DNA of 64,000 nucleotides from Peltaster fructicola. Lineage: Eukaryota > Ascomycota > Dothideomycetes. Shown piece after piece: positions 7,763 to 64,000 of this stretch (position 1 is its first letter; each line of letters begins with the position of its first letter). The stretch covers positions 3,612,294-3,676,293 of the forward strand of contig CP051141.1 in the NCBI GenBank assembly GCA_001592805.2, written 5' to 3'. Below the pieces are notes generated by a model, which saw nothing but the letters and a program-made list of their open reading frames with translations, was not told the origin of the DNA and made no database searches. The translations under genes were made by a program, and so were the position numbers.

Positions 7763-9714
7763 ATGGTTCTCGCCAAGAGCAAGAATGCCGTTGGGCTGGG
7801 AAACAGCCTGATGAACGACCGTTTCGGCAAGGGCAAGAACAGTAACATGCACAGAGGCAATGAAGGTGCGATCACACGACGAGATCAAGCAGGCAATGAG
7901 TACATCACGAACGCACACAAGGAGGCAGACTGGGTCAAGATGCGCTCAGTCACCGAGCAGGGCGCCCTTGACGAGTTCCTGTCGACTGCTGAACTTGCTG
8001 GCACAGACTTCACAGCTGAGAAGATGAATAATGTCAAGATCATACATACCGACCAGAAGAACCCATACCTGCTTTCGGCAGCAGAAGAGCGAGGCGTCGT
8101 ACGGAAGCAGAACGCAAAGAGAGCACGACTTACCGTCCCACGACGACCTAAATGGAACGAGAAGACTACACCACAAGAGCTGGATGATCAGGAGAAGACG
8201 AGCCTGTTGGAGTGGCGGAGAGGACTTGCTGAGCTACAAGAGGTGGACGATCTGCTGATGACACCTTTGAGCGTAACCTTGAAGTCTGGCGTCAGTTGTG
8301 GCGAGTCATTGAGCGATCAGATCTGGTTGTGCAGATCGTCGACGCTCGAAACCCTCTCATGTTCAGATGTGAGGATCTTGAGCGATACGTCAAGGAGGTG
8401 GACAAGCGAAAGAGGAACTTGCTGCTAGTCAACAAAGCCGATATGATGACAGTCGAGCAACGAACAGCATGGGCGAAGTACTTTTCTCAGAATAGCATCA
8501 ACTTCAGGTTTTTCTCAGCAGAGCTTGCGCGAGAAGCGAACGAAAGCAGACTGGAGAGCGTCGTGACGCAAGAGGTGGGCGGCAAGTTCTCACAACTGCA
8601 AGTTGATGGTTCAGACAGTGACGAAGAGGACGACGATGACTATGATCAAGATGATAGCGAGCAGGATAGCGACGAGGATGACGGGGATGAGCCAGAGGAT
8701 CGCCCAGAGCCACTTACAATTGACGAACAGATTCGCATCCTCACGACCGACGATCTCGAAGCACTCTTCTTGCAACACTCTCCAGCACCTGCCGAGGGTG
8801 ATGAGGACAATCGCAAGACACAAATTGGCCTCGTGGGATATCCTAACGTCGGCAAATCGTCCACCATCAACGCTCTTCTCGGTGCGAAGAAGGTGTCAGT
8901 CTCGGCAACCCCTGGTAAGACCAAGCACTTCCAGACTATCCACCTGTCGCAGAAGGTCGTCCTATGCGATTGTCCCGGTCTGGTGTTCCCTAACTTCGCA
9001 TCGACTAAGGCAGAACTCGTCTGCGCAGGTGTGCTGCCGATTGACCAGCTTCGAGAGTATACTGGTCCAGCAGCTCTGATTTCCCAACGCATACCAAAAC
9101 CATTCCTTGAGGCTGTCTATGGTATCAAGGTCAAGACCAGACCTGCTGATGAAGGTGGTACTGGCATACCCACTGGCGAGGAGCTACTCAACTCATATGC
9201 TCGAGCTCGAGGTTTCTTCACCTCAGGTCAAGGACAGCCTGATGAGAGTCGTGCAGCACGTTTCGTGCTCAAGGACTATGTCAAGGGCAAACTGCTTTTC
9301 TGTCACCCACCTCCTGCTGATCCGGCGATCAGTCCGGCATACTTCAACCGAGAGCTATATGATCTCCTCCATCTGCCATCAAAGCGACAAGCAGCTCTGG
9401 CTGCCCTGGCTGTTGATTCAAGCGAGCCATCAATCTTGAATGGAGACTACTCTGCTAGGCCAATGCCGACCAAAACACAGTCGCTGGACACACAATTCTT
9501 CGCGCCTGGTCGAAGTGATGGTAATCTGGTTCGACCGTTTCACTACAAGTATTCCGAGCAAGGCGGCAAGCAACTCTCTGGTCGCAAGCTCAAGACTGTG
9601 GCTGCAATGGAGAAAGGAGTTGAGCCAGCTGACCTCCGCGCTGGCAAGAAACACTTCAAGGCTGGCAAAAAGGCTGCTAAGAAGATACGAAGCACCGATA
9701 TCGATCATGAATAG
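7763..9714 (+). CDS. LSG1: Large-subunit GTPase 1 (60S export/maturation), interrupted by a 1-nt frameshift
   Basis: The N-terminal part (7763-8266) begins MVLAKSKNAVGLGNSLMNDR and runs to EVDDLLMTP. The remaining 481 codons continue one frame over from 8269 with ERNLEVWRQLWRVIERSDLV. The G motifs are in circularly permuted order, as in the YlqF/YawG family: G4 NKAD (about residue 230), G1 GYPNVGKSS, G2 region SATPGKTKHFQT, G3 DCPG. An Asp/Glu-rich insert (about 275-305) and a Lys-rich C terminus also fit. LSG1 removes the export adaptor NMD3 from cytoplasmic pre-60S subunits and is essential in yeast. The break falls in the T run at 8266-8268, where one extra T restores the frame. Because the gene should be essential, I favour a sequence error over a true pseudogene. 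Confidence 0.9.
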
Positions 9715-22437: not shown

Positions 22438-23199
22438 CAAGAAGTCATTCACGCGTCCAACATGGGCGTGCTCGATGCACTTTCCGTTCTTGTAGATGCA
22501 GTCTGCTATTGGATCCATCAAGAAGGTTGTATCGAGGAAGATGACTCGAGAGAAGCCTGGCTCGAGAAGTGTTGTGAAGAGTGTAAGAAGTTGTTGTGTG
22601 TCACAGCGACAGCGCGAGAAGGAAGTTGCGTTGTCATGCGCTCCACGATGGTCACCCTCAGATATGGCCTACAACAGCTCCCTACCACTTGCGACGAGGA
22701 CGAAATCGCCTTGTCGCATCCCTCCAGGAGCTGGAAGATCAACTTGCTTGTGACTACAATATGTGCCTCCGCAGACTTCATTGTCTTGGCATACTGCCAG
22801 GCAAGCCAACATAGGCAGGCAAAGGGCCGACAGGCACTGCGAATCTCCTATGCCACTGTCCAGCACTGCCCTGTAGGAGCGTTACCTGCACGCTCGATGG
22901 CTCAGTCACGCTCACGTTCACATTGAGGTATACATATGGCACATTACTGGATATTATGACAGTCATTGGACTGTTTTAATTGTTATGGACTATCGAAGGC
23001 GCGAAGCTATCGTGTGTCTCCTTACTGGGCGTTCGACAGCTTGACCTTGTCAAGTGTCGCCAGCTGTTATGCTTCCAACTGTGCTGGCCTGTGGACAGCT
23101 TGAGCTTGTCAAGTGTCGCCAGCTGTTATGCTTCCGAACATGCTGGACCGTGGACAGCTTGAGTGTGTCAAGTGTCGCCAGATGCTATGCCTCGAAGCA
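22438..23199. other. Intergenic region with 59-bp tandem repeats at its right edge
   Basis: About 760 bp between two minus-strand paralogs. A plus-strand frame at 22423-22926 has no recognised family. Only the 59-bp repeat near 23035 is clearly structured. Confidence 0.5.
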
Positions 23200-23205
23200 T
23201 CAGAT
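23035..23205. repeat. 59-bp tandem repeat, about three units
   Basis: Units begin at GACAGCTTGA at 23035, 23094 and 23153, and each carries GTCAAGTGTCGCCAG. The first two are nearly identical over their shared length; the third diverges after about 45 bp. The third unit runs into the last codons of family copy 3, whose stop is at 23200-23202. Confidence 0.85.
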
Positions 23206-24197
23206 GTCGAAGCAATAGCTCTGTGGATAGCCATGCAGATCGTCGAGGAACTCGACCTCAATGCAGTTGCGGTGACCGTTGCGGAACTGCAGAGGGTAGT
23301 TGAATCGGTTGATCCAGCGACTCATGTCTTGCAGCAGTCCATTGTCGATCCATCTGGCAATGGGAGCAGTTCCGACCAAGGCGAAGCCGTCTCTGATGGT
23401 CAACTTGAACTCGTCCAAGCGCAGGTGGTACAGATTCCACTTGAATGTCTGCAAGTCGTGGGTTGGCATGGTCTCATGGTCCTCACCTTCCTCAAGGCTC
23501 AAGTCAACCAAGTGGTGACTCAGTGGCAACAACTGAACACCCTCACGGAAGAGCATGATGTTGATCTTACGAATGTTCATCCATGGGTGTGGGAAGGAAG
23601 GAAGGCAGAGGATTGGTCGACGAAAGAATGTGAGGAAGCCGTAGATGTCGCCAAACAAGAAGACGCGTGTCTTGATGGTGTGGTCGAGGATCTCAAATCT
23701 GACGCTCTTGGAGACAGAGAGCAAGTTCTTGAGCGCTCCCGCTGGCTTCTTGTGGTAATGCCAGTCTTTGCCAAAGGCGATGGACTCATGTGGAAGCTCG
23801 TCAAGTTCTTCATGATCGTACACGGTTGAGTTGGCGTAAATGACCTCGCCGATGGACATGTCGTAGACCTTGTGGCGGATTTCAAGAGCGAATTCCATGA
23901 ATTTACTGAGTGTGTCAGTGGAAGAAACGCTGCCTCGCAAGCAAACTCACATGGATCCTTGTGGATTCTCGACATGCTCGCGATACGACTGCTTTTTGTC
24001 AGTGCTGGACAGCTGGTTGAATGGTTACAACTTACAGGAATCATGGTTCCGTTCGTGGCGGACATGTACTCTGACAGGTACTGTTGGAACTCGGCAGGCT
24101 CCATTTCTTCTTCCTGCTCCTGCAGGTGGATAGCACGAGCAAGTGCGAGTGCTTCGACAGGCTCCGAAGAGCCAGAGTTGCCAGTCATGGTAGCCAT
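23200..24197 (-). CDS. LPxEIRxxIY-family protein, copy 3
   Basis: Minus-strand exons 24197-24036, 23988-23951 and 23905-23200 give 301 residues. Exon 1 starts MATMTGNSGSSEPVEALALA and is acidic/Gln-rich. Exon 2 is a short SYREHVENPQGS piece. Exon 3 opens KFMEFALEIRHKVYDMSIGE, then shows LKNLLSVSKSVRFEIL and LYHLRLDEFKLTIRDGF. The intron ahead of the motif has the same phase (2) as in copies 1 and 4. The second exon has tandem CAG acceptors 3 nt apart (exon start 23991 or 23988), so one extra Gln is possible. The usual LP of the motif is FA here. The 3' end lies inside a 59-bp tandem repeat. Function unknown. Confidence 0.7.
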
Positions 24198-44986: not shown

Positions 44987-47074
44987 GCTTGCAGTGAATG
45001 GTCATCGTGTAGGCGTCTTATGTAGCTGGAGTAAGTTCAGATATGTGGCTGAAGAAAGCCATCTCGGAGCCCGTCGGTCAGCACATCAAGCGCTAGTGTA
45101 GTCCAAAGCATATCTCAGCCCTCTGAGCACAGCCACTTAAGGAGCTCGGCGATAATTGTCAGGCAGAATAGGAGTGTTGGTCCATCTTCTTAGTGCTGTG
45201 GAATGCGAATAGTGTGTCCTTTGTTCGGATGATCGGCGCCTGCAGTGGACGCAGTAAGAACATATCCAGGCTAGTGTAGTCGGATTGCGTTCGCATTGTC
45301 ACCTGCCGAGTCTCCGACCGTCCGTATGGTCTAGCGAGGATGATGGAGCCGTGCTGAGGATGTCTATGCCGCTCAGCAACCATCCGCATGAGTGTGTGGC
45401 TCGTAGTGAGGAATGCAACGACCGAAGAGTCTTGCCGGAGACGCTGTGGCGTCCGCAGTCTCATAAGTTGAGCTTGCAACTCCGCTCGTATTGCTGCTAT
45501 CGAACCAGGTATTCCAATCCATGCTGTCCGTACGTGCTCTCAGAACCTTGTGCTTGAGGCGGAGCGTCTGTTCAGCCATCGACATGTGCTTAGAAGTGGA
45601 TCTTTCGCAGTGCTTGATGCCGTGCATGAAGGGTCAGGAGAACGCAACGAGCAGGCGGCTGCAGTGCGTGCAAGACCAGTAGAAACCTCTTCACGACTCG
45701 AATGATGCTGTTCGACATAGGCGCCATGTACATGCGATCAGCCTAAGAACGAGAGGTTAGTGCAATGGACCTCGTAGCGTGATGAATGTCTCATCCATAA
45801 AGAGCTGCTAGTGGCCTGAGTGACACTCGTCTTTCTGATGAGTGGACAGCAGAGCTGCTTTGATGCAACGTCCGATGAGCCAGAACTCTCATCTCCTAGT
45901 CATCACATATCCAAACCTGCTGAGGAAGTGCTAGCTGCATACTACAAGCCTCTCGGTGGTAGTGGAGAGCGATCGAGTGTTCGACAGTAACGATTGATGT
46001 GATGGGGCTTCGGCCAGCTATTGTGTTTGGACTCTGTTGTCGCATGTTCGCATCGTTCCTCATCATATTCTTACCTCATTGTCTCCTCGCTATATGGATC
46101 GATCGATCGATATCTCTCGCTACTTGGCTGCGATCACAAGCTGTCTCACCATGGTATACGTGCTCTTGCCCAGGGTTACTGTGGAAGCAGATAGCTCGCA
46201 AACAGCACTGAAATGCTGACGGCTGGAGATGACTATGTGGCAATCGCTTGGAGTGCGGCATGATGCTTAGTAGTGAGCAAAGCGCATAGGCTTTCACTGT
46301 CGTTGAGTGCGATGTCCTTGTGCCTGTGTGTGTACTCCCACCTCGTTGTTCCACATGACATGTCACCATGCCTCATTACCACTCTTGTATGTCTTCGAGC
46401 TGTGCTCTGACGCCATCAACCGCATCGCCTGTTAGGCTATATAGTGCTTATTAACACTGGTGTTTGTTGACAGACGAGGTGAGGATGAAGGACGCAGCTT
46501 TGGCGGTCATCATTGCGACGAGGCGGCGTTCAAGCGTGATCGCTTGGTGCACAGGCGCACACAAGCTGGGGCAGTGCGTAGAGTCGATCGACAAGATAAA
46601 CCATGTCGATACGATGAGAGCGAGGGAATAAAGAGCTGTCGTGGTCTGTGGTTGTAGAAGCCAAGGTTGTGGTCGTGGATGCTGACTGAAAGTTCGGCGC
46701 TCTCGGGGGTGTTGTAGTTCTATCCGCCGTCCTCACCTGACTTCACCTCTGCATCCTTCCTCTTCAGCACTTCACAATGCCGGCCACGTCGCAAGCTACT
46801 GTCAGTATGATGAGCATGCTGGTGAGCGATACGATCATCCAGCGATTGCTTGGGCACACTCGGCGATCATTCAGTCTGTCACGACGTGATGCCTATGATG
46901 GTTGTCTTTGACCTCGGCGGCTAGAGCTGACAACCTTGCATGCAGCTGCGCCGCAAGTGTGTTCAAGTCCTTCATTACGCCTTCGCGTTGAGGTCGTCTT
47001 ACTTCGCACATCAATGTCTCAGTCCCTGATTTCGTCTTGGCTGTAAAGGACTGCTCTCGACATCTGAGTTCAAC
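44987..47074. other. 2.1-kb intergenic region, no supported gene
   Basis: Short frames with no family match. A short GATC-type run occurs at about 46096-46110. Confidence 0.5.
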
Positions 47075-48529
47075 ATGGACAATCTTGTGCCTGAACTACT
47101 GGAGCACATCGCCAGCTTCCTAGATTCGTCTACCTTGGACTGCTTCTCGAGGAGCAGTACGAATTGCAGAGCTGCTTCAATGCGCTGTCTCATGAACACA
47201 ATCAGCATCAGTTTCGACTCGCCCGAGCAATTCAGTGCTTCTCTCAACAAGACTATCGACATGCTAGAGGCGACAGAAGGCCACAAGTATGTTCGCCATC
47301 TCCGAGTCCACGCTACACACAGCTTGGAAGTCGATCGGTGGTACAATACCGATCACAACGACGTCTGGCGTCAACGTCACGAGGATCGATGCCTTGTTTC
47401 GTCGGCATATAGATGGCAGGAACCGCGGCTGCTTGATCTGAGTTCACCGTGGCCGGCTCTGTGTAAGGTTGTCAAGAGCCTACTAGCACTGCGTGAGCTC
47501 ACTTGGGCGACTCCAGAGCAGATACCTCTCGACATCTTGACACATTTACACACTTTGGGCAGACCTCGACTGCACATGCTTATGTTCGACCTCGCAAGCT
47601 TGTGCTGCAGGGATGGGCGACCACCGCACCTGAGTACGCAAGAGCTTGAGCTCGCCAGATCGCCGTATCTCCGGAGCATAGACCATGTCTCAGACCTCTA
47701 CTGGTACGATGACTACAAACAAGACGCCCTCCTGGAGATAGTCGCAGCCGGTGCGCTCAGGAACCTATGCATACGCAATACGGGTCCACCGCGGTATCCA
47801 GTGCGTGATACACAAGCTGCTAATAAGTCATTCGATCCATGGCAAGCTGGTATCATTCGGTCTACGGACTCTCTTGGTGCCCTCGACACTCTCATGTTAA
47901 TTGGCATCCAGACAGATACGACACTAAAGAATCTCAGTCTTCGTACAGACTTCTCCGTTCTAAAGTCGTTGAGCCTGTATGGACAGGTTCCGATGTCCAC
48001 CTTCTCATGGCTCAGTGAGCTCGATCTTCCTCTCGATCACCTTATCATTGGGATGCAAAAGTACTTGGTGAGCGTTGCGATTATCACATCCTTCACTTCT
48101 CTTACTAGCCTGCGCCTCGATAACAAGTACGATGTGGACTCGCTATACGAGATACTCAGACATTTCTCGGAGCGTCTGCGGGCTTTGCACTGCAAGTCAA
48201 AATTCATAGACCTGGACATGTTAGCAGTACTGTCTCAGTTCTGTCCACGAATTGAACAGCTAGGCTTCTGCATGGTCCGCAATGCCGACTCAGCTGCAGA
48301 ATTTGCTATCTATCACAGCATCGGGCGCCTGGTGGCAGTGAAACAAGTTGAATTACACTTTCGTCCTCATCAGGTTCCGCCAGAAACTATCAGTCAGAAC
48401 TATTACAGAACGATTGACCTTAAGAAGGAGAAGCAACTTGTATCATCGATCGTCCGTGCCATAGGCTCTTCGAAACCACAGTACGCAATCCCTCTCGAAG
48501 AGGTGCGCCTCAATGCGATAGCGAGGTAG
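47075..48529 (+). CDS. F-box protein with LRR-like C-terminal part
   Basis: A 484-residue intronless frame. It begins with an F-box-like motif (MDNLVPELLEHIASFLDSST, then CFSRSSTNCRAA). Repeated leucine-rich segments follow, such as LGALDTLMLIG, FSVLKSLSLYG and LTSLRLDNKYD, at roughly 25-30 residue spacing, consistent with irregular leucine-rich repeats. Fungal F-box/LRR proteins are substrate-recognition parts of SCF ubiquitin ligases; that role is inferred from family. It is the last gene I can support before the telomere, about 15.5 kb from it. It is distinct from the LPxEIRxxIY family in having no introns and a canonical LPxLLxxIxxFL-type box. Confidence 0.8.
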   Translation: MDNLVPELLEHIASFLDSSTLDCFSRSSTNCRAASMRCLMNTISISFDSPEQFSASLNKTIDMLEATEGHKYVRHLRVHATHSLEVDRWYNTDHNDVWRQRHEDRCLVSSAYRWQEPRLLDLSSPWPALCKVVKSLLALRELTWATPEQIPLDILTHLHTLGRPRLHMLMFDLASLCCRDGRPPHLSTQELELARSPYLRSIDHVSDLYWYDDYKQDALLEIVAAGALRNLCIRNTGPPRYPVRDTQAANKSFDPWQAGIIRSTDSLGALDTLMLIGIQTDTTLKNLSLRTDFSVLKSLSLYGQVPMSTFSWLSELDLPLDHLIIGMQKYLVSVAIITSFTSLTSLRLDNKYDVDSLYEILRHFSERLRALHCKSKFIDLDMLAVLSQFCPRIEQLGFCMVRNADSAAEFAIYHSIGRLVAVKQVELHFRPHQVPPETISQNYYRTIDLKKEKQLVSSIVRAIGSSKPQYAIPLEEVRLNAIAR

Positions 48530-51500
48530 CGTACTGCGTTGCAAGACTTTCCTCTCGGTTATGCCATTGCGATGTGACTTGATGAGGAGGCTTGGAAGAT
48601 AACGCAGTCATGGCCGATGCTCCATACAGCCGGATGAGCCTGCTTTTGCTAACCTTGGCGAGTATAACAGCCGTTCTTCAGCAGCTGATGACTGCTCAGT
48701 AAGTGTAACAACGATGCCTGGACTTGCGATGAGCTCAGAGCTGTAACCTGAGAGCGTGGAGGTCCTCATACTAGTTAAGTTCATTATTGATGGAAGTCGT
48801 CACTCTGCCTGTTGACATGCCTTTTGAGGGTGCTCCCGTCCTCGCAACTGTGTGTGTGTTGTGAGAGGAGTGTACTCACTGCTGCTGCTGCGGTGAGGTC
48901 ATCTGCGGCTTATAAGAGTATGATAGAAGCTCCATTAGAGTATGATGCTCAATGTCGACACTGCGGACAGCTATAGGAGTCCTGGGCACGATGAAGAGCT
49001 TCGAACGCTATGAAATCTTAAAGCGTATGCATAGCTCACCCACTGGCAGGGCCTGTAATCGCCGAGCCACTCACTACAACAGCTGAGGTTTGAAGTGTGA
49101 TCCTTCGTTCAGAAAGACGTCTAGGAGTACGAGTCTTGTTCTTCGCAGCCCACACTAGCTGCTCGAAGAGATCAGCATGATTCACTTGAACGATCTTTGC
49201 ACAGAAGCTCCGTCTGGTGATGCACGAACTGTGTGCTATAGTGGAAGGTGTTACGGCATGCGGTGCAACTTGACAAACGCTTGAGCTCTATTGCTGGTAA
49301 GAGCTATCAGAGAAGCGATCGGAAGCACACGAGAAGCATGCCAGCAGGTGATGAGCTGCTATGGGTTGGAGCTGCTACAGGTTGCAGCTGCCGAAGCGAT
49401 AGAAGGTCTTTGCATGATGGATTGATGATGGCAACGGCTGTCGCAGAGACAGGAGGTGTAGTGTTGTAGCAGACGTATGCAGTGCTTCTTGTACTCATGG
49501 ACTGACGCAACTTGTCCTTTGCAGGGTTGATGTGGCCCTGGTGTGTTCCGCATGAACAGTCGTCGGGAGTGTGGCTTGAGTTGTGCTCATGTCGACCACA
49601 GTGTTCCAGACGATTCAGCATCCCACAGTCTATGAGATGGCTGTGGAAATCTCGTGCATGTGCGTGCTGTATCCTGGAACGGTTGGTAGCGATCACTGCT
49701 CAGCTCAGGAGCAGATCGCCATACAGACAATGGGCGCGCACGACAATGGTACCAGTACTGGCGTGGAATGCGAGTCGGCCAGTGATGCTACAATGGGAGC
49801 TTGTCTTGCTTGTATGGCTTCTTCTCTCGCAGCAGCCTCGAAGGCCTGGCACTTGTCCTTTGAACGTCCGACCGAGAGCTGATACAGCACGCCCGCTGCG
49901 ATTTGTCTTCCACGACAACCTGACAATCTTGGGCACAGAATACGACAGAGAACAGAATGAGGTGTCTCGATGGCTGTCATTACCGATATGGCATTGAGCT
50001 CGTCCCAGGAAGTGGCAGTAGCTGGCCAAAGACTTACAAAGGCGTTTATGATGACTTTTTGAGGCGAAGACTTTGTAGAGTGGCTCAGGCATGCGCTGTG
50101 CTCTGTATTGGGAGTTTGGGGAGTGTGTCAGGATGTAGGGGTGCTCTCGAGATACGAGTGAGCTCTTGCAGTGAGCCGGTGCTGATGGACGGCGAAGAAG
50201 ACCAAGAAACTAAGAATGTCATGCTCAGATGTCTGCTACAATGTTGATATGGAGCTTTCGCTGCATGGCCATGGTGTGCAGTGCCAGTGATCCTGAACAG
50301 AGCCAGTAGCCGAGCGGCTGTTTCGATGTGTCCACTGCATGCCCATCATGTGGCCTCGCAGCCATCTGTCGAAGGCGCAAATTGCTAGATCCATGTTGAA
50401 AGGTATCTGGTATGGCCTGTTGGTGGCGAGGTCTTGATCGTGGGCCTCTTCGCTACAAACTCCCTGCGCCGCAGACTGCATCGTGATGTAGCTCGTGCAT
50501 GACCAAACTGCTTAGGGTGGAAAGTCTGTTGCGAGCATCAGTGGTCCTCATTCCCACCATTATCAACATGGGTTGGTGGTGTCCGTGACTGCTCAACAAG
50601 GCTGGGACAACCAGGCTGGGCAGCTGCTATGAGCTTCATGCAAATGAGTGAGTGAGGCCTACCATCTTCACTTTCTGGAAACGTCTCGATTGGACTGACA
50701 AGGCAGAGCTGTGGCTTGAGACTGCGATTCGACGGAGAGGGAGCTCGAACACAGCGTACGATTGTAGGTGGCCTAAACAAGTGACTGATGCTGCGAGAGT
50801 ACTGCTTGACGAGGAGGTAATACTGCTGCGAGATCGATCGCCTGAGTGATAGTGACACAGTGGGTGAGAGAGCTTGTGAGCTTTCGTACGATCGATGGTC
50901 CTTGTAGAGCTGAAGCTGCCAGTATTGGTGATCGCTGATGTGTCGTATTCGCAACGAACATTGACCTCCATCGAGCTTGCAATCAACGCAGTGATCAGAC
51001 TTGTGCATTGCCTGCATGATGCATGGCATCGATGGACAAAGTGGTGTCAAGCTGCGTCCTTGCTCGATCCTGTGTGCTGGTGCATTGTCGCTCCTGCAAC
51101 AGTCGATTGTCACAGTCTGCCTGATGTATCATGCTTTGTGAACTGAGTCATAGTAGAGCACTGGTTGACAGGCCATGAAACCATCCGCAACGGCGAATCG
51201 GTTTGATGCCTGCGGGAGCATGTGTTGTTGAGTACGATCCACCCTATGCAGTGTAGGGGCGGTGTCTCGTCGCCTCCAAAGCGTCCTGCGTATGTACGTG
51301 CATTGACGCTCATTGCCTAGATTCACCTTGCTCGTGTGTATGGCGCTCCTCCTGCAATGTACGTGCCTTGCTCCAAATGACGTCGACGAGCAGCCAGAGC
51401 ATTACACTGGCCCTATCCATCGACCTGAAGTAGTGTGAATGGTGGTTGAAGCTAGAGTGGACAGCGTGGCGACTCAAAACTCAAGCATAGAGACGAGACT

Positions 51501-56850: not shown

Positions 56851-59800
56851 AGCGAAGAGCGATTACGGTACGATGGCCAACGGACTACAAGACGTCGATA
56901 CAGCATAGTCGAACTCCTGGTATGCTCTAATGGACAAGGACTCCAACGTCTCGCCACATAGCGTCGTAGTCGGATCTATCGCCTACATGGCATGGCAGCG
57001 GACGTTCACAACGTGGAGCTGGTCAAGCCGGAGTATACTGCCATCGTCGCTGAGCTACCTGTGACTTCACTATGGTGCTGCTGCGAGGAGTGCTGTTTCT
57101 CTTAGAGGAGAAGAGCCATCTACTGCCGAGTTCGGGGCCGAGCAGCACACTTCATCGTAGAGTGGAGAGTCGGTTAGACGCAATAGTCGTATCATTGTCT
57201 ATGGGAGGAAGTCCAGGCTGGAGCTCGTCAATATGCAACGATCGATCACACCTCTAGATCACCTTTAGCTTTCGACTCGTCGGTCTCGCTATCGCACTGC
57301 GTTGATCTTGTGTAGATCTTAGCAATCTCACACCGCTGGTGAGGGCGCAATGCTCAGGCTGCTCAGTCTGCAGATGAGGACTTCAGAGGGCTCAGGATGA
57401 GGACATCTATCGAGGCGATCGTATCTCAACGCTGCGATGAACCAGAATGTCGCGATGTGTCCGAGGAGCGTCCCATCGGTCGTGAGTGCCTCGCAAGTGT
57501 ACTCGCCGGCTCGCCCTCGTCGGTCAGGCATCAAGGAGGCCGCATGATGCTGGACCAGCTCTGTCCACGTCTATGCACGCCAACGATCCTGATCGATGAA
57601 GTTCATAAGCATACGACATACTACAGAGACGAAGGAGGTGCGTAACGTCTCGCTGCGACGGTGGGAAGCTGTCGTTGACACCTGGCGAAGGCACCGTTTA
57701 TGATGAGACCAGTTGAGGGACGTTGCACTGGCAGGTCAGACAAATGGTCGTGGTCCTGTGAAAGATGTGCATCTTGTGAATGGCATCGCTGAGGACGTGC
57801 AGGAGATTACGATTTAGTGCCGACGGTGAGTGAATCTCTGATCGCACTGTACTTTCGCCTTTCGCTCCTCTCCTCTTCGTATCACTCCAGTGGCAGCTCG
57901 TCGTCAGCAGTCTCGTTGGTTGTTCAGTGTTGTTCTCTTAAGGCTCACGGCTGTAGTGTCCCTTGATCTATCGCCAGTGATCATCTTGTTCTTTGCAAGT
58001 TTGCGCATGCTCCAAGAGCTCGTACCAGAGTCTTGCACAGATCTTTTGTGAGTTTCTTTGTGTCTAGGCTACAGTGCTGAACCAGCACAAGGTTAGCACT
58101 CATCATGGCTGCACAGCGGCCGCATGATGGTGCTATCGAATGCTGATGGGTGCCTCGCTAGTATATGACGATCAGATGGTACTGCTTGCACAGCATCGCC
58201 CTGGCGAGACGAGCATCGACTGCGACCACCTGATGCTGTATGCGTATCGCTTACATGGCACAGCATGCGATCTATGGCACGCTTGTTCCCATGCTGAACT
58301 TGCAGCAGCCAGGACTGGACATCGCACAACTGCTGCTGTCGAGCTGTCTGTCCATCCTGCACCTGATCATCTGCAGCTTCGTCATGAAACCTCAGGTCTT
58401 CCGGGGACAGCATTGATGTGTAGAGGAGGCCACTGTGGTACTTGTCTCCTGCTTCACTGAAAACTGTTCGCTCGGCGATCACTACTCACAGTCTGGGCCC
58501 TCTCGACAGCTTATCATTGGCAGCGGTACTCCTTGTGCTATGTACTGTTCGCAGCGATGCTCCTGACGATGCTGCTCTTGCCAGAAACACGCTGGGATAC
58601 ACTGTGATGTCTCATGGCGTGTTGCTAGCATCCTTCATCTGGTTGCATCTCGCTGACGTCGGCTGCATGAATGCCGAGTCGCTCTGGCTGTCCTCTTATT
58701 GCTCAAGCTGCTGCAGGTATGCGCTGTCAGCAGATGCCCTTGGTGGCAGAGAGAGTTCTGTCGGCATTGACAAGTCGGGGATTTGTTAGATCGACCGCAA
58801 TGGCATACTTTGACACTCAATCTGCACGCCCTCGAAGTCGAGGGAAGGCGAGGTTGCTGTACGTGGTCGCCGATGTGCTCGCCTTTAAAATGAGCGACAC
58901 CTGGATGCTGCCATCGAGGGTCCAGATGCTAGCATCGCCCATGCTGCGTGCAGTCCTTACTTCTAATACAGAATGCTGCCTGTGGTGGGATATGCTGCTC
59001 TATCGACCAAGCGCTGCTTGTACTTGGCTTTCGACTGATAGCTATGTAATGCTGCTGTGCGCGAGGCTGTATGGCTCTTGCGGGCGACAACGTACTGCTC
59101 TCGCTTGCCTACCTTGGTTCGCTCGTCGTCTGACTGCTCTCCTTGAGAGGCTGTGTAGAACGAACGACTGCACTCCTCCAGTAACCACGCTGTTGCTCTT
59201 GACGATGCTCCTTTGTTGCTCTATCGCTATACACTGACTGTGGAAGACGTTGATAGCACAGTGTTGCCGTTGTGGCCATAGCTGATGATCTCATGTGGTG
59301 TACTACCTTCATCGTACACTAGGAGTGCTCGTCGAAACCTGTGCGCTTCTTCTGCTGCTCTTTGCGACCTGCGCTGTCCAGCGTGCTGATTTGAAGCATT
59401 CTATCCTCGGCGGCGTGCCGCTCTGAACATTCCCTCTGTTCACTGTCCTGCTTCTGTCTCAACGATTGTTCAGTTCATCTGGTGCGCTATAGTCCGTGTC
59501 CTGGGGATGTTACTATGGCATGCTGCTCGAGCACAGGCTTCTCCGCGATCCTCAATGGCAGGTCGCATATGTCCTTCTGACGATGCAGGCACTGGTGTGA
59601 CTGGTTGTACGGTTCTCTGAGCATTCGTTGTCGTGCTTCGCTCTCCATATCGCCTTCTGCTGCGGTACTGAGCGTCGGGTGTCAATCGCCTTGAATGATT
59701 GTACGATGGACTCTTGAGGTCGTTGCCGTGTGTCATAGCGTATGAAGGCTGGGTTGTTCGTATTGCTGTGCTGTACGTTGTGAGCCGTACGCACTGCTTG

Positions 59801-61700: not shown

Positions 61701-63955
61701 TCAGGGCGAAGGATCATAGAAGTAGAGTAGAGTTGGGTGAGAAACCCTAACAAATTTCCTCCACACACATGCAGAACTTCTCTCCCTTGCAGACAGAGCT
61801 GTAGGCGTGTGAGGAAGCTGATATATGGCTTGTTGGAGAGCCTAGAATCAGGGCTACAACTTCATCATACAGAGTGAATCGATCAGAGGCATATTGGTGA
61901 AGTTGGAGATGGAATGAAGTGAAGATGAGATGAAAATCAGGGTCTAGAGAAGCTTTGTATGAGGATCACACCAAGCAGTTCTCCACCCTGTAGAATGGGC
62001 TACAGGCGAGTTATCACAGTGGTACATGGCTCAATCGACAGCTCAGAGCGAGCACTATCAGTCTCTCATACAGTGTGAAGCCATAGGACCTATATTGAGA
62101 GAGTTGTAGGGGCATACAGGCAGGTATGAGATATACACAGTGGAGTGAATTTCTGAGCATGGAGGAATTTTGTATGAGAAACACACCAAACAGTTCTCTA
62201 CCACCTACACACAGCTACAGGACAGCTATCAGCCTGGGGGAAGCATCACTGCGTAGAGCTGAGTGAGTGCGTGAGAAACCTCACTTTCATAGTCCCCTAG
62301 CATCAGAAATGACTGCCCAGCTCACTGACACAAAGATGGAGAAAGAATGTATGAGAAACACTAACAAATTTCCTCTAACTCGATGTCAGTAGGTCAGGCA
62401 GTCACTTTTCTCGCCACACACACGTCAACACAGGGAACCACGCACGGGGGACAGTTCAGAGCGAGGAGACCAATTCACTCATACAGAGTGAAGCCATAGG
62501 AGTGATATTGAAGGAGTTGACTGTAGCATCAAGATAGAGGAGTTTTGTTAGCAATCCCCACCAAAATTTCCTCCATCTGAGTGTGTGAACCACTTCACTT
62601 TGCGCAAGCAGCTGCAGGTGAGCTATCACAGTGATATATGGATGGATTGAGAGCTCTGAGTCGCAGCTACAACTCTCTCATAGAGTGTGAGTCCATCAGA
62701 GCTATATTGGGAGAGTTGTAGGGGGATACAGGCAGGTATGAGAAATACACAGCACTGTGTATATGTGGGGATGGAGGAATTTTGTATGAGAATCACACCA
62801 ACCGCTTCTCCACTGTCTACACGCAGCTACAGAGGAGCTACGAAGCTGATATATGGCTGGTTTGAGAGCTATCACTCGGCGCTACAAACCGCTCATAGAA
62901 GCCATCTCAATCAGAGCCATATTGGTGAAGCTGAAGATGGGCTGAAGTCGAGTTGAGATGAAAATAAGGGTCCAGAGGAAGTTTCTTAGCAAATCACACC
63001 AACCACTTCTCCACCTCCTAGAATGAGCTACAGAAGAGCTATGAAGCTGATATATGGCTTAATCGACAGCTCAGAGTGAGTGCTAGAAGTCACTCATATA
63101 AAGTGAGACGATTCACTCAGAAATGGACCTGCTGATTGGCCTGATGCAGGCGGGTATGAAATGTACGCAGCACTGTGTATTCTTCAGAATGGAGGAAGTT
63201 TGTTAGTAAAACACACCAAGCAGTTCTCTACCCTGTAGAATGAGCTACAGGACAGCTATCACTCTTTCGACAGCTGAACTGAGATGAGACGACTCAGGAG
63301 CTCCTAGATATAGCTGTTTTGAAGCTCCTGTGCGAAAACTCGGAAAGTGAGAAATCAGGCATCAAGGCATCAAGGGTCTTAGAGGAATTTACTATGGCAT
63401 TTACACCAAGGAGTTCTCTACCTTACAGAAACAGCTACAGGCCACATATAGACATGATATATGGCTTATTTGAGAGCTTAGAGTGAGGGCTATCAGTCGC
63501 TCATAGAAAGTGAGTCCATTAGGTCAAAATCTGACAAGCTGAATGGCCTGATGCAGGCAGGTATGAGATGTACTGTGGGGTGTGTATTCTTCAGAATGGA
63601 AGAAATTTGTATGAGAAATGCACCAAGCAGTTCTCTACCACTTTGCAGCAGCTACAGACCACCTATCGCGAATCCGAGCTCATATTTGAAGTCAGCTCGA
63701 CGAGGAGCTCCTGGAAAAGCTCAGAAACAGCATAAAAGACGAAAAGTGAAAAACAGAAAATGGTGATTTTCACACGCCAAGACTTTCGAATTTCAGGGTC
63801 CAAGGAGGAAATTTGTATGAGGATTACACACACGACTTCTCCACCCTGTAGAATCACCAATAATGGTGTCGCATACATGATAACAGTGTCAGTGGAGAGC
63901 AGAAGACGTGCGCTTTCCAGAGGCACAATAATCAACTCGATAGCACCATTATTGG
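61700..63955. repeat. Subtelomeric degenerate satellite, roughly 205-bp period
   Basis: About eleven diverged units. The most regular block is GGAGGAATTTTGTATGAGAA followed by CACACCAAGCAGTTCTC and, 30-40 bp on, GAGCTACAG. Copies occur near 61751, 61953, 62162, 62346, 62537, 62774, 62973, 63193, 63382, 63600 and 63808. Secondary shared blocks include GATATATGGCTT (61820, 62850, 63050, 63451) and ACAGGCAGGTATGAGA (62115, 62730). It runs up to the telomere. Confidence 0.85.
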
Positions 63956-63956
63956 T
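63855..63956. repeat. 13-nt inverted repeat next to the telomere
   Basis: ACCAATAATGGTG at 63856-63868 is the exact reverse complement of CACCATTATTGGT at 63944-63956, with 75 nt between them. The right arm touches the first TAGGG unit. Confidence 0.85.
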
Positions 63957-64000
63957 AGGGTAGGGTAGGGTAGGGTAGGGTAGGGTAGGGTAGGGTAGGG
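63956..64000 (+). repeat. Telomere-type repeat (TAGGG)n, nine copies
   Basis: Nine perfect copies of TAGGG fill the last 45 bases, with the G-rich strand running 5'->3' toward the window end as expected for a right telomere. The unit is five bases rather than TTAGGG, the common filamentous-ascomycete repeat. The array may continue beyond the window. Confidence 0.85.

Follow-up and report, generated by a model that had tools for sequence, protein, structure and literature searches.

We analyzed a window of 64,000 nucleotides, by which we mean the whole stretch of DNA under study, numbered from its first letter. The right-hand end of this window successively displays a degenerate satellite, a short junction and an array of TAGGG units (Table 1), while recognizable genes lie further inside. 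Indeed, nine of ten open reading frames (ORFs) elsewhere in the window gave Pfam matches, corresponding to a PAN-domain protein, UreF, LTV, a ribosome-binding GTPase, a sugar transporter, Peroxin-3, an O-methyltransferase, a GMC oxidoreductase and DUF4419. Of the 13 ORFs that reach 130 aa or more and overlap the region 42-64 kb, we also tested ten, located at 47-59 kb. Only three weak matches were obtained, all below the Pfam cut-off, namely two F-box models for 47030-48526 and one phage model for 50541-51128. No match to Rfam was found in the window at gathering thresholds, and no tRNA was detected in it by ARAGORN used with the bacterial code. A small tandem repeat is present at 23035-23190, where Tandem Repeats Finder (TRF) reports 2.6 copies of a 59-bp unit with 89% matches; it overlaps the start of the ORF 23128-23829.

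Table 1. Features identified at the right-hand end of the window.
Feature	Position	Strand	Evidence
Degenerate subtelomeric satellite, head-to-tail units of ~205 bp	61772-63856	+	Repeat spacing, nhmmer, alignment
Junction of 99 bp, satellite to telomere	63857-63955		Sequence and exact-match scan
Telomeric array, (TAGGG)x9	63956-64000	+	Direct reading; TRF; perfect-run scan; TAGGG published for P. fructicola

The GC content of the window is 51.6%, and a splice rule accepting only lengths of 40-120 nt yielded six candidate introns of 42-50 nt (median 44). A GC content of about 52% combined with introns of about 50 nt fits other fungi too; for example, Pseudocercospora fijiensis also has short introns, with a median of 45 nt. 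For Peltaster fructicola, the published genome, with accessions CP051139-CP051143, displays a GC content of 51.95%, a median intron of 50 bp and gene-poor subtelomeres (PMC7181583). The composition of the window, its short candidate introns and its gene-poor end thus fit this genome. The same paper places a GH31 and an amino acid permease in the right arms of chromosomes 2 and 5 (PMC7181583). Neither was found among the ORFs that we tested, which represent only some of those present, so that the window could still come from either of these arms.

One gene region deserves a particular comment. The ORFs 7763-8428 and 8359-9714 overlap in different frames, and the second one carries the ribosome-binding GTPase domain identified with Pfam. 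They may both belong to a single LSG1-like gene. The original prediction had considered that three genes of the window look as if single bases had been lost from short homopolymers. There is some ground for this view, as one candidate region was found, the present one. The two frames at 7763-9714 may stem from an indel left in the assembly of a single gene, from an intron or from a true change.

A degenerate satellite next to the TAGGG array

The satellite was recognized from the spacing of its repeats, which ranges from 190 to 217 in the repeat search, with multiples near 407 and 612. In the second round of nhmmer, 11 matches were obtained on the plus strand, with E-values from 8.8e-10 to 1.4e-51, these scores being partly circular since the profile was built from copies of the window and rebuilt from its own matches at E <=1. 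They correspond to nine whole or nearly whole copies and two partial ones. As a control, the window was read backwards and the model rebuilt once more, which gave two matches at E <=1. An additional match on the minus strand (61761-61720, E-value 7.8e-4) was excluded from the copy count. The copies have diverged considerably, the mean pairwise identity of the nine longer ones being about 56% (40-73%) when the two partial copies are left out. The array was not reported by TRF run on the window.

In the main text of the paper that described the P. fructicola genome in 2020, the terms "satellite" and "tandem repeat" do not occur, and we found no description of this array of about 205-bp units (PMC7181583). 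The authors compared the subtelomeric regions over up to 25 kb and report that none of them are homologous at an E-value of 1e-3 and a coverage >10% (PMC7181583). The array found here is 2,085 bp long and represents 8.3% of 25 kb. Provided that coverage was computed relative to 25 kb, it would fall under the 10% cut-off, and related satellites at other chromosome ends could have been missed in the same way.

Between the satellite and the TAGGG units, the junction is bracketed by a perfect inverted repeat of 13 nt (63856-63868 with 63944-63956), the second arm of which extends by one base into the TAGGG units. However, the same scan returned a further match of 13 nt, between 63937-63949 in the junction and the reverse complement of 58127-58139. 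It is thus quite possible that the bracketing repeat arose by chance.

The terminal TAGGG array

Direct reading of the last 45 bases gives nine perfect and uninterrupted TAGGG units, among which no variant unit was seen. The G-rich strand runs 5' to 3' toward the end of the window, as expected for a right-hand chromosome end, and the array reaches the very last base (64000). This description, which was that of the original prediction, is borne out by TRF, where the period-5 run begins slightly earlier, with the two G at 63954, and extends over 47 bp with 100% match and a score of 94. It is also borne out by a scan for perfect runs with a period of 4-7 and a length of at least 18, in which the array is the sole run of the window. 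When TAGGGTAGGG was searched on either strand with at most one mismatch, eight matches were obtained, all of them within the end array, whereas 100 shuffles yielded 0.90 matches on average and never more than 4. Conversely, the search for TTAGGGTTAGGG with at most one mismatch gave no match in the window, for 0.02 expected. The TAGGG run at the end of the window is not due to chance. With an end array made of TAGGG and TTAGGGTTAGGG absent, what we observe is not a telomere of the six-base TTAGGG type; it is the unit known from P. fructicola, with the G-rich strand directed toward the chromosome end. Altogether, we propose, with a probability of about 0.93, that the array is a true TAGGG telomere, made by telomerase and terminating a chromosome of a Dothideomycete that is most probably Peltaster fructicola. 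The presence of TAGGG rather than TTAGGG at a telomere of a filamentous ascomycete, as had been predicted from the sequence, is supported by two publications that give this unit for P. fructicola (PMC7181583, PMC10100673).

One would nevertheless wonder whether the real unit could be TTAGGG, one T having been dropped from each TT through a sequencing or base-calling artefact. This caution accompanied the original prediction and was a reasonable one: the published Peltaster assembly was built from R9.4.1 nanopore reads (PMC7181583), and the gene region 7763-9714 is split over two overlapping frames. However, isolated TT or AA runs are common in the open frames of the window. We counted 879 of them within nine frames of 11,952 bp in total, a number to be read as a bound and not as an unbiased loss rate, since these frames were chosen for their openness and comprise one without a Pfam match and one from the split region. 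Moreover, the same base would have to be lost in nine of nine units. Other fungal assemblies obtained with nanopore reads yield TTAGGG. The nanopore errors documented at telomeres convert TTAGGG to TTAAAA, and CCCTAA to CTTCTT or CCCTGG (PMC9414165), and TAGGG is not among these. Finally, the P. fructicola assembly is a Canu and SPAdes hybrid of R9.4.1 nanopore data corrected with Nanopolish and with two rounds of Pilon, the first one using about 256x Illumina reads (PMC7181583). Because two-base T or A runs are so frequent in the open frames, and because the published nanopore errors give other repeats, a systematic loss of T in all nine units is unlikely. The caution is therefore not supported, and we regard an artefactual five-base unit as very improbable.

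Another explanation would be that the array is not a telomere, the window simply stopping within a TAGGG microsatellite of interstitial location. Exact (TAGGG)x7 does exist elsewhere as a plain microsatellite, in 13 stretches of a prokaryote genome collection and in two of a viral collection. Seven of the 13 prokaryote stretches are titled Hymenobacter (L003, L006, L007, L008, L011, L012 and L014). In three of these 15 loci (L001, L002 and L013), the surroundings of the array contained nothing like a fungal telomere. The locus L002, a viral contig from IMG/VR, carries 17 consecutive TAGGG units in its interior, at 1629-1713, which form a plain microsatellite by their position. On the other hand, 13 stretches per 257 billion bases of the prokaryote collection make the occurrence of such a run by chance in 64 kb negligible. 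TAGGG microsatellites are very rare, and the location of one right where a gene-poor stretch of the window stops is not a matter of chance. In addition, the GC content drops to 0.485 and 0.459 in the final 4 kb, compared with 0.50-0.54 before, none of the ten ORFs tested at 47-59 kb passes the Pfam cut-off, the satellite stops 99 bp short of the TAGGG array, and TAGGG is the published telomere unit of the fungus that matches the window (PMC7181583). An interstitial microsatellite is thus extremely improbable.

A third explanation would be that the window belongs to another fungus, as yet unreported, with the same TAGGG telomere. The species, and with it the class, is inferred from the fit described above. 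However, the GC content, the intron size and the telomere unit all agree with P. fructicola, which TelFinder names as the Pezizomycotina species with TAGGG (PMC10100673), and among the papers that we consulted no other such fungus was encountered. We consider this third explanation improbable.

Possible origin of the five-base unit and comparison with other telomeres

The TAGGG motif of P. fructicola is already known and has been in print since 2020. Wang et al. reported it as the unit at all chromosome ends of this species, with ten telomeres assembled for the strain LNHT1506, and called it new for fungi while stating that Giardia shares it (PMC7181583). In 2023, TelFinder named P. fructicola as the Pezizomycotina species with TAGGG (PMC10100673); its input consisted of public genome assemblies, perhaps including the same P. 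fructicola assembly, so that its result cannot stand in for an inspection of reads. In the TeloBase article, neither TAGGG nor Peltaster appears in the main text. One statement of the 2020 paper needs to be corrected, namely that five bases would be the shortest unit among reported eukaryotes, the others having 6-26 (PMC7181583). The insect unit TTAGG, also of five bases, has long been known, and a paper of 1993 on it is listed among the references of TelFinder (PMC10100673).

As the motif itself has been known since 2020, the worthwhile question concerns its mechanism. Telomerase makes each telomere unit by copying the template carried by its RNA (PMC10100673). It is likely, on the basis of a simple model, that TAGGG would be specified by a template devoid of one A in its copied half. 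The ancestral template would have specified TTAGGG, as in most Pezizomycotina, before losing one A in the half that is copied. Each cycle of translocation would then add five bases instead of six, and the proteins of the double- and single-strand telomere would bind the shortened unit.

In our toy model of translocation, a TTAGGG-type template that is shortened by one A in its copied half produces an AGGGT unit when realignment involves 2 or 3 nt. A loss restricted to the alignment half keeps TTAGGG under the same conditions. If 4 nt are needed, realignment no longer takes place when only one of the halves has lost a base, and a five-base unit requires both halves to be changed. Since the five-base unit is obtained with a pairing of 2-3 nt, one deletion can suffice in this model. 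A broader scenario can be drawn, in which TTAGGG would have become TAGGG in one step by the loss of a single template A, the binding proteins would have followed, and about 2 kb of degenerate 205-bp satellite would cap the subtelomere, possibly at several chromosome ends. Taken as a whole, this scenario is tentative, and we hold it as conceivable rather than probable.

A five-base telomere in one Dothideomycete, when most Pezizomycotina have TTAGGG, amounts to a natural experiment. Telomere proteins are of Taz1/TRF-like and Pot1-like types. The comparison of these proteins and of the telomerase RNA template with those of relatives should help clarify how a telomere unit changes.

The window resembles the published genome of P. 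fructicola LNHT1506, to which it very probably belongs, in its TAGGG unit, its GC content and its short candidate introns, and no difference was found with what is reported in these papers (PMC7181583, PMC10100673). A parallel can also be drawn with Giardia, the main telomere unit of which is TAGGG as well. Giardia belongs however to an unrelated lineage, and the variants TAAGG and TAAGGG described there have no counterpart among our nine units (PMC10999387). A review on Giardia cites the formation of a G-quadruplex by d(TAGGG)4 (PMC10999387), a property that would extend to all DNA with the same sequence. Finally, the TTAGGG telomeres of most Pezizomycotina share with the present array the A followed by a run of G and the same orientation, but their unit has six bases, with one more T in each of them.
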